Shown here one piece after another: positions 8,315-38,743 of a stretch of 64,000 nucleotides of DNA. The first letter of the stretch is position 1. Each line of letters starts with the position of its first letter. Source of the stretch: Guyparkeria halophila (GTDB lineage: Bacteria > Pseudomonadota > Gammaproteobacteria > Halothiobacillales > Halothiobacillaceae); NCBI RefSeq assembly GCF_034479635.1, contig NZ_CP140153.1, forward strand, positions 1,309,501 to 1,373,500, written 5' to 3'. Both the position numbers and the translations under genes were made by a program. The notes below the pieces were generated by a model, which searched no databases, was not told where the DNA came from, and saw only the letters and a program-made list of their open reading frames with translations.

Positions 8315-8405
8315 TGGCGGAGGGTCAGGGATTCGAACCCTGGAAGGGCTATTAACCCTTGCCGGTTTTCAAGACCGGTGCATTCAACCGCTCTGCCAAC
8401 CCTCC
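8315..8405 (-). tRNA. tRNA-Ser (anticodon UGA)
   Basis: Read on the minus strand from 8405, the sequence has the acceptor stem GGAGGGT paired with ACCCTCC, discriminator G and an encoded CCA ending at 8315. The anticodon stem CCGGT/ACCGG holds the loop CTTGAAA, giving anticodon TGA. A long variable arm (GCAAGGGTTAATAGCCCTT) is the class II hallmark of tRNA-Ser, and the T arm contains GGTTCGAATCC. The gene is 91 nt including CCA. Confidence 0.97.
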
Positions 8406-28210: not shown

Positions 28211-29251
28211 ATGGAATACCGACGATTGGGCAACAGTGGCCTCAAGGTGAGCGAGATCTGTCTCGGCACGATGACCTTTGGCGAGCAGAACACGGAGGGC
28301 GAGGCACACGAGCAACTCGATCACGCGATCGCTTCCGGGATCAACTTCATCGATACCGCGGAGATGTATCCGGTACCCCCACGGGCAGAGACACAGGGGC
28401 GCACGGAGTCCTACGTTGGTTCCTGGTTGCGCAAGCAGCGGCGTGACGAGCTGATCATCGCCACCAAGATCACCGGCGCGGGGCGTGCCAGCCTCAATCA
28501 TGTTCGTGGTGGTCCTCGCGTGACGCGAGAACACGTCCGGAAGGCGATCGACGATAGCCTCGGTCGTTTGCAGACCGACTACGTCGATCTCTACCAGATT
28601 CATTGGCCGGATCGGTACGTGCCCAAGTTCGGCCAGGCCTATTACGACCCCGACGAACGTTGGGAGAGCGAGTCGATCGATGAGCAGTTACGGGCACTCG
28701 GCGAACAGGTCGAGGCCGGCAAGATCCGGTATGTGGGGCTGTCGAACGAGACGCCCTTCGGGGTGATGGCCTTCGTCGAGGCGGCGCGTCGACATGGGCT
28801 GCCGGTCGTCACCTCGGTGCAGAACGCCTACCATCTGATGAACCGGACCTTCGAAACCGGGGGGCTGGCCGAGGTCTGCAATGAGCTCGATGTGGCGCTG
28901 TTGCCCTACAGTCCGCTGGCATTCGGTCATCTGACCGGCAAATACCTGGACGATCCGTCGGCCCCGGGCCGCATCACGCGCTTCCCCGATTTCGGCCAAC
29001 GTTATGAAAAGCCCAACGCCGCCGCGGCGACCCGCGCCTACGTGGATCTGGCCCGCGAGCACGGTCTGTCGCCGGCACAGATGGCGATCGCGTTCACCCT
29101 GCGTCGCCCCGAGGTGGCCGCCACCATTATCGGTGCCACCACCCTGCGCCAGCTCGAGGAAAACATTGCCGCGGCCGATGTGTCACTTTCGTCGGAACTG
29201 CTCGACGCGATCGATGCGATCGACGCCCGCTATCCGAACCCCACGGTCTGA
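28211..29251 (+). CDS. tas: aldo/keto reductase of the Tas type
   Basis: The 346-residue NADPH-dependent oxidoreductase closely resembles E. coli Tas along its length. Shared features include LGTMTFGEQN near residue 20, DTAEMYPVPPRAETQG with the catalytic Asp and Tyr, a Lys in IIATKITG, and the active-site His in YQIHWPDR. The C-terminal NADP site GATTLRQLEENI is present. A GGAG ribosome-binding site precedes the ATG. gabD follows after 19 bases, so the two probably share a transcript. The physiological substrate of Tas is not well defined. Confidence 0.9.
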   Translation: MEYRRLGNSGLKVSEICLGTMTFGEQNTEGEAHEQLDHAIASGINFIDTAEMYPVPPRAETQGRTESYVGSWLRKQRRDELIIATKITGAGRASLNHVRGGPRVTREHVRKAIDDSLGRLQTDYVDLYQIHWPDRYVPKFGQAYYDPDERWESESIDEQLRALGEQVEAGKIRYVGLSNETPFGVMAFVEAARRHGLPVVTSVQNAYHLMNRTFETGGLAEVCNELDVALLPYSPLAFGHLTGKYLDDPSAPGRITRFPDFGQRYEKPNAAAATRAYVDLAREHGLSPAQMAIAFTLRRPEVAATIIGATTLRQLEENIAAADVSLSSELLDAIDAIDARYPNPTV

Positions 29252-29270
29252 CGTCGGAAGGGAGACGACC

Positions 29271-30734
29271 ATGAGTGAAGATCTGATCGCATCGACCGCC
29301 GCCAACCCCTTGTTCCGCGAGGCATGCTTTATCGACGGGCAGTGGATTTCGCCCGAGGATGCGGAACGACAGGTGGTGACCAACCCGGCCAACGGCGCGC
29401 AGATCGGCGCGGTCCCCCGGCTGGGAGCTGAGCACACGCGGCAGGCGATCGAGGCGGCCAACCGGGCCTGGCCGGCCTGGCGGGCACAGACCGCCGAGGC
29501 GCGCGGCGCGATCTTGTACCGCTGGTACGAACTGATGCTCGAGCATGAACAGGTGCTGGCGCGGATCATGACGATCGAGCAGGGCAAGCCGCTGGCCGAA
29601 TCGGCCGGCGAGATCCGCTACGCGGCCTCGTTTCTCAAGTGGTTCGCGGAAGAGGCCCGGCGTGCCTATGGTCGGACCATCCCGCCGGCCAAAACCGGGC
29701 AGCAAATCGTGGTGATCCGCCAGCCGATCGGCGTCTGTGCGGCAATCACCCCCTGGAATTTCCCCTCCTCGATGATTACCCGCAAGGCGGCTGCCGCGCT
29801 CGCCGCCGGTTGCCCGATCGTCGTCAAACCGGCCAGCGCCACGCCGTTTTCCGCGTTGGCATTGGCGGCGCTCGCGGAACAGGCCGGGGTGCCGACGGGG
29901 GTATTCAACGTGTTGACCGGTTCGGCAAGCGAGATTGCCGGCGAGATGACGGCCAACCCGATCGTGCGCAAGATCTCGTTCACCGGTTCGACCGAGGTGG
30001 GTAGTGCGCTGATGCGCCAGGCGGCCGGGAACGTGCAGAAGATTTCCCTGGAACTGGGGGGGAACGCGCCGTTTATCGTGTTCGACGATGCCGATCTCGA
30101 GGCTGCCGTGGAAGGCGCGATCGCCGCCAAGTTCCGAAACACCGGCCAGACCTGTGTTTGCGTCAACCGCTTCTACGTTCAGGAAGGGATGTATGACGCG
30201 TTCATCGGCCGGCTGAAGGACCGCATCGAGGGCCTGGAATTGGGCGACGGGATGAACCCCGATTCCGACGTGACCCCACTGATCGACAAGGCGGCCGCGG
30301 ACAAGGTGCTGGCGCAGATCGAGGATGCGACAGCCCAGGGCGCCACGCTGGTTACCGGCGGGCGACGTGATCCCCGCGGCGAAAATTACGTGCTGCCGAC
30401 GCTGCTGACGGAAATCCGCCAATCGATGCAGGTCATGCACGAGGAGACGTTCGGCCCACTGGTGGCCGTGTCACGCTTTACCGACGAGGCGCAGGCGATC
30501 GAAATGGCGAACGACACGCCTTTCGGTCTGGCGGCCTATTTCTATAGCGAGAACGTCCACCGGGTCTGGCGGGTGGCCGAGGCGATCGAGGCGGGCATGA
30601 TCGGGATCAACACCGGACTGGTGTCCAATGCCGCGGCACCCTTCGGTGGGGTCAAGGCATCGGGCCTGGGGCGCGAGGGCGCGAGCGAGGGATTGGACGA
30701 GTACCTGGAGACCAAATACCTGCTGATGGGGTGA
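29271..30734 (+). CDS. gabD: succinate-semialdehyde dehydrogenase (NADP type)
   Basis: The 487-residue aldehyde dehydrogenase matches GabD. ITPWNFPSSMITRKAAAALA marks the cofactor site. SLELGGNAPFIVFDDADLEA holds the general-base Glu. FRNTGQTCVCVNRFYVQ holds the catalytic Cys. The enzyme oxidises succinate semialdehyde to succinate in 4-aminobutyrate breakdown. GGAAGGGAG precedes the ATG at 29271. No gabT is adjacent, so other semialdehydes are possible substrates. Confidence 0.92.
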   Translation: MSEDLIASTAANPLFREACFIDGQWISPEDAERQVVTNPANGAQIGAVPRLGAEHTRQAIEAANRAWPAWRAQTAEARGAILYRWYELMLEHEQVLARIMTIEQGKPLAESAGEIRYAASFLKWFAEEARRAYGRTIPPAKTGQQIVVIRQPIGVCAAITPWNFPSSMITRKAAAALAAGCPIVVKPASATPFSALALAALAEQAGVPTGVFNVLTGSASEIAGEMTANPIVRKISFTGSTEVGSALMRQAAGNVQKISLELGGNAPFIVFDDADLEAAVEGAIAAKFRNTGQTCVCVNRFYVQEGMYDAFIGRLKDRIEGLELGDGMNPDSDVTPLIDKAAADKVLAQIEDATAQGATLVTGGRRDPRGENYVLPTLLTEIRQSMQVMHEETFGPLVAVSRFTDEAQAIEMANDTPFGLAAYFYSENVHRVWRVAEAIEAGMIGINTGLVSNAAAPFGGVKASGLGREGASEGLDEYLETKYLLMG

Positions 30735-30791
30735 GGCCATTGGGGCCGATGCCCGTTGGTTGTTTCAGCAGGGAGGCCCGTCGCCAGCGCT

Positions 30792-31061
30792 AGGGAAACT
30801 CTGCACGAATCGATAGTGTCTCTGCGGGATCGCCAAGGATCCAGATGCAAGGCGCAGTGCGCAGTGAATGGCCGTTGCCATTCGCAAGCACCGCAACGCC
30901 GCAGATGGGCCCTTGGCGGCCCGCCCGTGCGGGGCTCGCGGGTTGGCCCGCACTCGTCGTTCCCGGCCCTCGACGGGCAGCGAGCCCGCCTTCGGCCCGG
31001 CGCCTCGATTGCGAACAAACCCGCGAGCCAGAGGCGCCATCGATTCATGCGAAGTTTCCCT
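30792..31061. mobile_element. MITE-like element with imperfect terminal inverted repeats
   Basis: The left end at 30792-30824 (AGGGAAACTCTGCACGAATC...) and the right end at 31029-31061, read inverted, match at 27 of 33 positions, and all six differences are transitions. The 270-bp unit has no convincing gene and fills the gap between gabD and the SprA gene. No clear target-site duplication is visible at the borders. An 18-base core of the left end, GGAAACTCTGCACGAATC, is repeated exactly at 33008-33025. The size, inverted ends and lack of coding sequence fit a non-autonomous transposable element. The parent transposase is not in the window. Confidence 0.65.
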
Positions 31062-31078
31062 TCGATGAAACGGCAGGC

Positions 31079-31786
31079 TCAGGCCATCGCATTGAGGTTC
31101 GAGCCGGCCATCACTTGGTTGGCCGTGCGGCGATACTGGGTGGATGCGTCGCTCGAATCTACCCCCGCGGCGGAGCGCTCATCGTCGCCTTGAAAGTCGG
31201 GGCCGGCGCGGGACTCGGCCTGGTCGCTGGCTTGGCCGGTGGACTGGGCTTCGGCCTGTGCCTCGGCCTGCGCGCGATTGCGTTCGGCCGTTGCCTGCGC
31301 CGCCACGGCCAGGTCGGTGGGTGACGGCTCGGCCGGGGCCAGGGCCGCGCGAATGACCTGTGCCATTTTATCCGCGGTCGCTCGTGGATCGTCCGGGACG
31401 GGCGTGGTATCGATCTGGACGTCGCCACCCACCGCGTAGCGTTTTCCGTCGGGTCCCTGTTGGTAGTCGTAGGAACCACCGCGCACGAGGTTGCCTCCGG
31501 CCGCACGATGGGCATTCTCATGGGCACGCACCTCGCGATCACGCGCCTTGAGGTCCGTCAGCATGCGTTGCTCCTCGATCGCCGTCGCGTCGGTCGTCAT
31601 GGGTGCCCGAACCGGGCGCGCCTCATCGCTCTCCCGGCGTTCAACTCGCGGCGTTTCCGCGGTTGCCACCGGCGCTTGTGGCTTGGTGGCCGGCCCCATG
31701 CCGGTTGGTGCCACGACCGTCGACCCGCCCGGCACGAACGGCGGGGCAGGCGGGAGGCTGGGCAATGAGGCAGCGATCGGTGTCAT
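31079..31786 (-). CDS. SprA-family putative metalloprotease (CJM1_0395 type)
   Basis: The 235-residue protein has a Pro/Ala/Thr-rich N-terminal third. The core domain holds HENAH at residues 89-93 within EVRAHENAHRAAGG, an HExxH zincin-type motif. RGGSYDYQQGPDGKRYAVGG follows. The C-terminal 70 residues are Ala/Gln/Glu-rich low complexity. These features match the SprA-related/putative metalloprotease family, for which activity is not established to my knowledge. No clear signal peptide is seen. The MITE-like element ends 17 bases after its stop. Confidence 0.72.
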   Translation of the reverse strand: MTPIAASLPSLPPAPPFVPGGSTVVAPTGMGPATKPQAPVATAETPRVERRESDEARPVRAPMTTDATAIEEQRMLTDLKARDREVRAHENAHRAAGGNLVRGGSYDYQQGPDGKRYAVGGDVQIDTTPVPDDPRATADKMAQVIRAALAPAEPSPTDLAVAAQATAERNRAQAEAQAEAQSTGQASDQAESRAGPDFQGDDERSAAGVDSSDASTQYRRTANQVMAGSNLNAMA

Positions 31787-33005: not shown

Positions 33006-33100
33006 AAGGAAACTCTGCACGAATCCGATGCGCGCCGGCCCAACGAGTCGTTCGTGGTCAAGGCGCGCGGGACGTTTTCGGGCTCGTGCACGGGTTCCTC
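33006..33100. repeat. dispersed repeat sharing its end with the MITE-like element
   Basis: AAGGAAACTCTGCACGAATC at 33006-33025 contains an 18-base exact copy of the left-end core at 30794-30811. The segment at 33081-33100, read inverted, matches it at 14 of 20 positions (GAGGAACCCGTGCACGAGCC), so the 95-bp interval may be a very short element with its own inverted ends. It lies between the YqjK-like gene and the ribosome-binding site of exoD, so the exoD transcript probably crosses it. Confidence 0.5.
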
Positions 33101-33114
33101 GAGGAGGAAGGGTG

Positions 33115-33750
33115 ATGCCGCAGGATGAGGATCGAGCGAAAACCGGTCAGGCATTGGTCGTCAACGAGGCGCCACGCAATCTGGGCGATCTGCTGCAACG
33201 GATCGCACAGGTCGCATCCGACCGGGACGACGTCTATCTGGCGACCATCATGGACGCGCTCGGCACGCGGTCGTTCGGCCCGGTCCTCCTTCTGATCGGT
33301 GTGATCCTCGTATCGCCCCTAAGTGGCTTGCCGGGCATGCCGACCACGATGGGAATCGGTTTGGCGTTGATCTCCCTGCAACTGGTCATGGGCCGAGAGG
33401 CATTCTGGCTGCCTCGTTGGCTGCTTGATCGTCACGTGCCCAGCGGCCGCCTCCAGAGCGCACTGCAATGGCTGGACCGGCCGGCGCGTTTTATTGATTG
33501 GTGGCTGCGGCCACGACTCTCCATACTGGCCTCCGACAGTGGCGCGGTTTTCATCGCCGCGATCTGCCTGCTGTTGGCGCTGGCCATGCCGGCGATGGAA
33601 TTGGTGCCATTCTCGGCGACGGCCGCGGGACTGGCCGTGGTGGCTTTCGGCCTGGCGCTGGTGGCCATCGACGGCCTGTTCGTGTTGCTGGGGGTGTTCT
33701 ACCTGCTGGCCGTCGCCACGTTGGCCATCACCGGACTGGTGGCGACCTGA
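33115..33750 (+). CDS. ExoD family membrane protein (first copy)
   Basis: The 211-residue protein belongs to the exopolysaccharide synthesis ExoD family. GTRSFGPVLLLIGVILVSPL and GLPGMPTTMGIGLALISLQL are the family core. FWLPRWLLDR follows, and two more transmembrane segments lie near the end. GAGGAGGAAGG is a strong ribosome-binding site. The family is named from Rhizobium exoD, needed for exopolysaccharide and alkali tolerance; its biochemical role is unknown. A second copy lies at 36415-37035. Confidence 0.85.
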   Translation: MPQDEDRAKTGQALVVNEAPRNLGDLLQRIAQVASDRDDVYLATIMDALGTRSFGPVLLLIGVILVSPLSGLPGMPTTMGIGLALISLQLVMGREAFWLPRWLLDRHVPSGRLQSALQWLDRPARFIDWWLRPRLSILASDSGAVFIAAICLLLALAMPAMELVPFSATAAGLAVVAFGLALVAIDGLFVLLGVFYLLAVATLAITGLVAT

Positions 33751-38270: not shown

Positions 38271-38299
38271 CAAAAAAACCCCGCACGAGGCGGGGTTTT
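38271..38299 (-). terminator. intrinsic terminator of the cold-shock gene
   Basis: CCCCGC and GCGGGG flank ACGAG. On the minus strand the stem is followed by seven Ts, and on the plus strand by TTTT, so it may work in both directions. Confidence 0.85.
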
Positions 38300-38323
38300 G
38301 CTCCGTACCGGGTTAAGACCAGA

Positions 38324-38524
38324 TTAGATCTGGACGTTTACCGCGGCCGGGCCCTTCTGGCCTTGCTCGACTTCGAAGGTGACGGTTTGGCCTTCGGCCA
38401 GCGACTTGAAGCCGCCGCCCTGGATGGCGCTGTGGTGGACGAAAACGTCCTTGGAGCCGTCGGAAGGAGCGATAAAGCCAAAGCCTTTCTCGTCACTAAA
38501 CCACTTAACTGTGCCTGTAGCCAT
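38324..38524 (-). CDS. cspA: CspA-family cold-shock protein
   Basis: The 66-residue OB-fold protein has RNP1 GFGFI in [17 protein letters not shown] and RNP2 in [10 protein letters not shown]. It binds single-stranded RNA and DNA as an RNA chaperone. The family often has several members per genome, so cspA is used in the broad sense. A long AT-rich leader lies upstream and a strong terminator downstream. Confidence 0.96.
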
Positions 38525-38743
38525 GATGGATACCTCTGATGCTATGCATGTGCATAATTTTGAATGAAAAACGAGGGGTGCTGAAGGACTGCAAAAGCGT
38601 CAGAGAACTGCAAATCGTAGCGGGTCGTACAAACTGGAAAATTCAATCTGTGGTCCTGCGGGGTTCGAGCCTGGTGCAATTGAGGAGTCCTTAACTGATT
38701 CCTCTCGGGAAAGCGATCTTTCGTTTTCCCGGAACGCATTATC
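38525..38743 (-). promoter_or_regulatory. long leader and probable promoter of the cold-shock gene
   Basis: About 220 bases upstream of the start codon carry no gene. The stretch is lower in GC than its surroundings. GATAAT on the minus strand (38743-38738) is a good -10 match but lacks a convincing -35 box. Long structured 5' leaders are typical of cspA mRNAs, which are thermally regulated. Frames in it are short and not gene-like. Confidence 0.4.

Follow-up and report, generated by a model that had tools for sequence, protein, structure and literature searches.

The window, a 64,000-nt stretch of Guyparkeria halophila (C1:1309501-1373500 of a single-contig 2.45-Mb genome), contains a gene gap between an aldehyde dehydrogenase gene (29004-30734, + strand) and a SprA-related gene (31079-31786, - strand), as the original prediction had it. 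That prediction placed in this gap a 270-bp MITE-like element with a noncoding, GC-rich interior and 33-nt inverted ends matching at 27 positions. The inverted ends are real: all six mismatches are transitions, and when the 270 bases were shuffled 60 times, the best inverted repeat of this length, wherever it lay, matched at 21 of 33 positions. The size has to be corrected to 266 bp (30794-31059), as the outer AG and CT belong to CTAG and CTTC in the flanks. Codon-usage gene calls leave 30735-31078 gene-free, with overlapping open reading frames (ORFs) appearing only in a mechanical list, and the description as GC-rich is weak (66.9%, versus 65.3% for the window). The main feature had been overlooked, namely, that the interior is a conserved, covarying fold found far beyond the genus. 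The features are listed below; R1 is a covariance model of arm A (20 sequences, 104 positions), and its match to arm A of the window (E value of 3.9e-20) involves a sequence with which the model was built.

30790-30793, no strand: left target repeat CTAG, assigned by the family rule of a 4-bp direct repeat, imperfect in this copy
30794-31059, + strand: complete 266-bp element with GGAA..TTCC ends, delimited by flank comparison of 98 insertions and by other copies
30794-30821, + strand: left terminal repeat, forming the 5' side of the closing stem (helix 1; 27 pairs, with pairing in 95.8% of cells across 58 copies)
30822-30926, + strand: arm A, a hairpin of about 100 nt with conserved loop letters CAAGGCG and CAACGC (R1 match, covariation)
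30925-30932, + strand: tentative mini-hairpin between the arms (helix 4), with 97.4% of cells paired and zero compensatory changes
30933-31029, + strand: arm B, a second hairpin inverted relative to arm A (helices 5 to 8); in other genomes, R1 matches the second arm when read on the opposite strand
31032-31059, + strand: right terminal repeat, forming the 3' side of the closing stem (helix 1; consensus fold, covariation)
31060-31063, no strand: right target repeat CTTC, assigned by the same rule, with 2 of 4 bases as in CTAG
33008-33098, + strand: second family copy of 91 bp, internally deleted or decayed (end-pattern pair, sequence)

The 91-bp derivative overlaps the start of a mechanically called ExoD ORF (33028-33750), whose true start probably lies downstream of the derivative, near an AGGAGG at about 33100. 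The only Rfam matches in the window lie outside the element and are a cspA thermoregulator (38271-38652, - strand) and a tRNA (8318-8405, - strand).

Copies, target sites, and empty sites

The element is a MITE: it is multicopy, has terminal inverted repeats and a 4-bp target duplication, and is missing from its site in congeners. BLAST returned 45 matches in the genome, and the sequence was neither single-copy nor seen at the same locus in distant relatives. The 17-base end pattern, with at most one mismatch, occurs at 101 places in the genome, versus 0 for the reversed pattern. Among 100 listed places, 35 adjacent +/- pairs were found, 22 of them spanning 262 to 272 bp and the rest 42 to 257 or 332 bp. 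Of 103 candidate full-length pairs, 96 were retained after removal of seven (three from other genera, three mispaired, and one of 257 bp); these 96 copies are 264 to 278 bp long, and 79 are exactly 265 or 266 bp, while non-redundant copies diverge as far as 53% identity. The 278-bp variants L164, L172, and L182 have a common 12-nt insert in the arm B loop and possibly form a sub-lineage. Short palindromic derivatives of 35 to 59 bp, which kept both ends and lost the arms, are present in L090 (777-831), L092 (1200-1241 and 5464-5498), L075 (3285-3343), and L086 (1705-1759 and 5160-5199) and could reveal whether the core is needed for movement.

An exact 4-nt direct repeat lies immediately outside the ends in 28 of 98 insertions with different flanks (a set in which an insertion may be counted twice if the flanks of its orthologous copies have mutated), compared with a mean of 8.2 and a maximum of 18 in 2,000 re-pairings of the flanks, whereas a 5-nt repeat was found in 0 of 98. 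The commonest flank is CTAG (28 left, 21 right), and the 28 exact repeats comprise 13 CTAG, three each of CTAA, ATAA, and CTTG, two each of TAAA and CAAG, and one each of CTGG and TTAG. The target rule of IS5 is YTAR, and the repeats of the family follow it, though some of the 28 do not fit. Eight of the 28 (CTTG, CAAG, TAAA, and CTGG) are identical repeats without a central TA and do not conform to a TA-dinucleotide duplication of the ERIC/Correia/RUP type, though of the 14 TA-sharing sites other than CTAG/CTAG in the end class of the window, 7 have only TA in common. At L002, L033, L034, L050, and L185, the insertion flanks match other places in the same loci at 70 to 95% identity, and a second repeat family seems to adjoin the element there.

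The window locus is empty in 6 of 10 congeners, that is, in all those in which both flanks were found; four of these calls rest on alignment (G001, G002, G007, and G003) and two on the distance between flank matches (G005 and G008), and in the remaining four congeners no right-flank match was among the matches listed. Further empty sites are consistent with a 4-bp duplication, with CTAG on both sides in one comparison (L168 versus L167) and CTTG on both sides in another (L177 versus L005). In named genomes, the two-ended pattern was found in 53 stretches, mostly from Guyparkeria and from metagenome bins assigned to Halothiobacillus or Halothiobacillaceae. Of 369 genomes of the class, 9 contain the exact end pattern, and five of these have a single, partnerless match. 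Copies at L131 (G172) and L174 (Halothiobacillus sp. KhW_metabat.21) are 96.6% identical to each other and of the 85% class relative to the window element; as this likeness involves a genome placed in another family, it is a matter of either horizontal transfer or taxonomy.

A conserved fold with two inverted arms

The interior is a conserved fold of two inverted hairpin arms of about 100 nt, closed by the paired ends. In the consensus fold of 58 non-redundant copies, the ends pair into a closing stem of 27 pairs, within which lie arm A, the mini-hairpin, and arm B. Compensatory double changes that keep pairing occur at 55 of its 85 pairs; 95.5% of cells are paired (78.9% when shuffled), double-change cells number 850 (326 when shuffled), and the covariation score is 0.445, versus 0.161 for shuffled alignments and at most 0.096 when the structure is slid. 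The CAAGGC motif is invariant in all 58 copies. The single strand of the window element is also far more stable than its shuffles, with z scores of -5.62 as DNA and of -9.05 and -9.45 as RNA of the two strands. At gathering score, Rfam returned no match for either the window element or 18 superfamily loci, with only weak sub-threshold matches, and a known RNA family was rejected on this basis.

Relatedness among copies inflates such covariation counts, and each copy was therefore also paired with its closest relative. In 41 pairs called non-orthologous (some of which may be orthologous, since the flanks of L033 and L034 match with an offset, and the last of which is only 65% identical), double changes comprised 100 compensated and 31 uncompensated cases, compared with 23 of any kind expected under independence; among single changes, 182 either destroyed or re-created a pair, whereas pairing was retained in 127. 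Seven orthologous sister pairs had 29 pair-breaking changes versus 4 compensated ones, and the fold may thus not be kept after insertion; the divergence of these copies is low, so this excess cannot tell the models apart.

Alternatively, mutation instead of selection could keep the arms of an ordinary MITE matched, through quasi-palindrome correction, with one arm serving as the template for the other when the DNA is replicated. In single copies such as L066, L079, L091, and L009, unusual letters at one end have their match at the other, which points in this direction, as does the excess of doubles in orthologous pairs too (4, versus 0.8 expected). Such copying should erase fixed unpaired letters, yet CAAGGC in the family, and CAAGG and GCAAC in the arms of other genomes, persist beside covarying stems, and the fold is common to very divergent genomes. 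We regard correction as an unlikely explanation of the compensatory changes, though it is the strongest of the alternatives.

R1 matched 55 of 229 sampled gammaproteobacterial genomes, representing 47 of 195 genera, with more than one match in 38 genomes and a single match in 17, in a survey based on rough E values with stricter filters applied, up to 17 candidates scored per genome, and no negative-control genome. Further matches were found in Thiomicrorhabdus chilensis (E value of 2.7e-11), in Nitrosomonas europaea (4.4e-7), and on an Azotobacter chroococcum plasmid (1.6e-10, one arm). A + arm followed by a - arm occurs in 48 of 62 loci picked for an R1 match (56) or an element or end match (6), with L260, which is cut by a contig end, left out of the 48; the gap between the arms is 3 nt in 39 loci, 4 nt in 5, and 19 to 29 nt in 4. 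By this arrangement, the unit is two back-to-back inverted hairpins, like two transposon ends with nothing between them. Arms A and B of one element have a median identity of 63%, and their duplication therefore looks old. Covariation extends outside the genus: in 43 non-redundant arms from 17 genomes, double changes occur at 31 of 32 pairs, 91.8% of cells are paired (60.7% when shuffled and at most 44.3% with slid structures), double cells number 420 (131 when shuffled, with a maximum of 153 in 300 shuffles), and CAAGG and GCAAC are conserved. A search of open-licence PubMed Central found no description of the family.

Terminal repeats and the search for a transposase

The original prediction also implied a mobilizing transposase in the genome, and this is not supported. 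Profile searches of the genome with PF01609 and PF13358, which cover these two families, gave zero matches, whereas the same searches were positive in 9 and 3 of 14 control genomes, and no adjacent +/- pair 400 to 4,000 bp apart, such as a longer element with the family ends would give, exists among the 100 listed end places. A mobilizer in the same genome is usual for MITEs and yet is not required, and mobilizers are often lost. PF01609 is present in 9 of 27 genomes of the bacterial family and yet in only 1 of 10 congeners (G002), and the element of the latter was rejected as the mobilizer, as its ends are unrelated to the family ends. PF01609 was not found in T. chilensis (G393), G172, or G041, and scanning of 17 PF01609 loci of N. 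europaea for the end pattern gave no pair; a transposase with the exact family ends was thus found in none of the genomes and loci covered by the PF01609/PF13358 searches and end-pattern scans.

Related ends are found on IS5-group elements of the sister genus. L101 is a 1,211-bp element with GGAAGGTCTGATCAAT at both ends, TTAA on both sides, and a transpos_IS5_4 match (E value of 6.7e-89). L105, also from the sister genus, has one visible end, GGAACCTCTGATTGAATCC, which is identical at 16 of 19 positions to the family end GGAACCTCTGCACGAATCC even though the genus is another one, and matches transpos_IS5_4 as well (9.2e-85). R1 has no match at an E value of ≤1 in either element, and thus no autonomous element is known to include the arm. 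A 227-bp element of the sister genus (L109, 1105-1331) has IS5-matching ends of the L105 type, is flanked by CTAA on each side, and contains a CAAGGC motif; it is not matched by R1, contains a run of N, and adjoins another IS5-type end. We infer that an IS5-group enzyme, since lost, moved the window family. BLAST searches of plasmids (three queries), phages (one), and Escherichia coli (one) gave a single partial plasmid match, and viral contigs, scanned twice with exact patterns, yielded no match; spread via plasmids or phages was rejected on these results.

The arms are enclosed by a stem of about 30 bp that differs in sequence from genome to genome. Its end types include GGAACCTCTGATCAATTATG (G083), TGTACTGCTTCACTCTTGG (G110 and G233), TACTCYKTCAAGGTRATAA (G237, G222, and G090), TGTCCCTTAACAGAAGTTCG with TGTCCTGTCTCCGAAGTTCG (G051), TGGGCCAAGTGG (G041), and TTAAGGGCACCTCTATTAATAG (G157). 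Some ends resemble those of identified insertion sequences. An insertion sequence on a Halomonas plasmid (L326, transpos_IS5_3, E value of 5.9e-84) has CTA|GGGCCTGTTGACGTTT at both ends, matching the Azotobacter end, CTA|GGGTCTGTTGACGTTT; the linking BLAST match was weak by itself (E value of 3). The Azotobacter end is also present without the core, i.e., without an R1 match, at four other plasmid loci. The G157 end resembles an insertion sequence in G083 (L318, transpos_IS5_4, 6.3e-72), with mismatches at 4 of 22 positions at one end and 6 at the other, and the G051 end shows a less close likeness to an IS630 element of G105 (L313, 2.5e-79). For the G110, G237, and G051 ends, no same-ended element was found at the PF01609/PF13358 loci examined, partial resemblance aside. 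An assignment of the TA-type ends to IS630 was dropped once the Azotobacter end had matched an IS5_3 element with CTA flanks, and L314 was rejected as an insertion sequence with class-3 ends, as such an end merely adjoins a broken IS630-like gene there. L313 and L315 are IS630-family elements with perfect inverted ends starting with CTAGT, in genomes that also hold superfamily elements.

The target repeats may differ between end classes too: outside the class of the window, only TA is common to both flanks at 12 of 15 informative sites, although these ends were anchored on TAG/CTA, which favors TA, and two of three non-CTAG identical repeats (GTAC) look misplaced.

Elements with different ends coexist in G083, G041, and G157, which gives room for recombination within one genome. 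A shared core could hence have arisen without capture of ends, either by convergence of MITE families or by gene conversion of cores between unrelated elements. Convergence is made improbable by the conserved loop letters, their order, the inverted arrangement, and the 3- to 4-nt gap in 44 of 48 two-arm loci, while recombination between elements would itself be a way of swapping ends. This explanation is, in our judgment, quite improbable.

Interpretation and comparison with known elements

With moderate confidence, we interpret the element as a trans-mobilized MITE with a conserved fold, whose core, ancient in our reading, sits in other ends elsewhere and whose fold would favor mobilization as a single strand. 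An IS5-group DDE transposase, absent from the genome now or only visiting, would recognize the outer ~17 bp and move the element, and in other lineages the same core would be moved by transposases recognizing other ends. The least certain steps are that the fold might form in single-stranded DNA, e.g., on the lagging-strand template; that the folded strand might pair both ends into one duplex and thus favor mobilization; and that selection on the single-stranded state might keep the arms complementary. That the role of the fold is mobilization is our guess. More tentatively, the heritable unit could be the folded core rather than the ends, a unit that would be ancient, would have spread by taking the ends of local DDE transposons, and would be selected as a single strand. 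If so, its hosts would possibly comprise gammaproteobacteria and at least one betaproteobacterium, its ends would be of IS5_4, IS5_3, and possibly IS630 type, and the fold would parasitize several transposase groups.

A host-useful RNA (a terminator, mRNA stabilizer, or regulatory RNA) that transposition has spread and whose transcript is the reason for its retention would agree with the very stable RNA fold and has precedent in ERIC and NEMIS, as described in PMC2229807, and in the Coxiella elements of PMC5896051. The two inverted arms make the strands equivalent and therefore suit DNA (transposon) ends better than an RNA gene. The 45 copies lie between tandem (22), divergent (9), and convergent (8) genes, with 5 undetermined and 1 in an ORF, close to the baseline of 17, 8, and 7 from home-made gene calls in window gaps of at least 20 bp; a terminator role was rejected, as there is no orientation bias and no excess at convergent genes. 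Together with the empty window site in 6 of 10 congeners and the absence of an Rfam family at gathering score, this makes a host RNA very unlikely. Large conserved hairpins with fixed unpaired letters might suggest that the element is moved in folded, single-stranded form, with a Y1 (IS200/REP-type) transposase or else an integron integrase taking the place of a DDE enzyme; this is hardly credible given the terminal inverted repeats, the 4-bp target duplication, and the ends like those of DDE insertion sequences.

MITEs are usually viewed as decayed transposons whose interior is of no importance. In the window family, the terminal repeats differ, whereas the interior stays recognizable and compensatory changes preserve its fold across great distances; of the parts of the element, the fold seems to be the one that lasts. 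If the reading as a trans-mobilized folded MITE is true, a noncoding fold can be a selfish unit, one can test directly whether single-stranded structure helps DDE transposition, and about one-quarter of the gammaproteobacterial genomes sampled contain a family for which Rfam gave no match. Covariance screens could also take such folds for host RNA genes.

Several known repeats are comparable in part. Compared by description only, QMITE1 and QMITE2 of Coxiella burnetii are similar in having about 50 copies per genome and in giving small RNAs but differ in size (300 to 400 and 150 to 190 bp) and in their direct repeats of 2 to 3 or 7 to 11 nt, according to PMC5896051. ERIC, Correia/NEMIS, and RUP, in passages of PMC2229807, are likewise small and mobile, have ends that pair, and give transcripts with stable hairpins, and for RUP, trans mobilization by an IS630 transposase has been proposed there; they are about 100 to 200 bp long with TA at their ends, whereas the window element has 266 bp and 4-bp repeats, and those passages hold no counterpart of a two-arm core with interchangeable ends. 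The CIR repeats of Caulobacter and Brucella, again compared by description only, are intergenic and have a strand drawn as two long arms with a linker, but without a stem of paired ends, in the same passages (PMC2229807); a GANTC motif also characterizes them. The IS5 family (NCBIfam transpos_IS5_4) and its derived MITEs differ from the window element, which is without a transposase gene and has the two-arm fold missing in L101 and L105, and the inner end letters differ as well; they share with it the outer end GGAANNTCTG, as in L101 and L105, and the 4-bp repeats like CTAG and TTAA.
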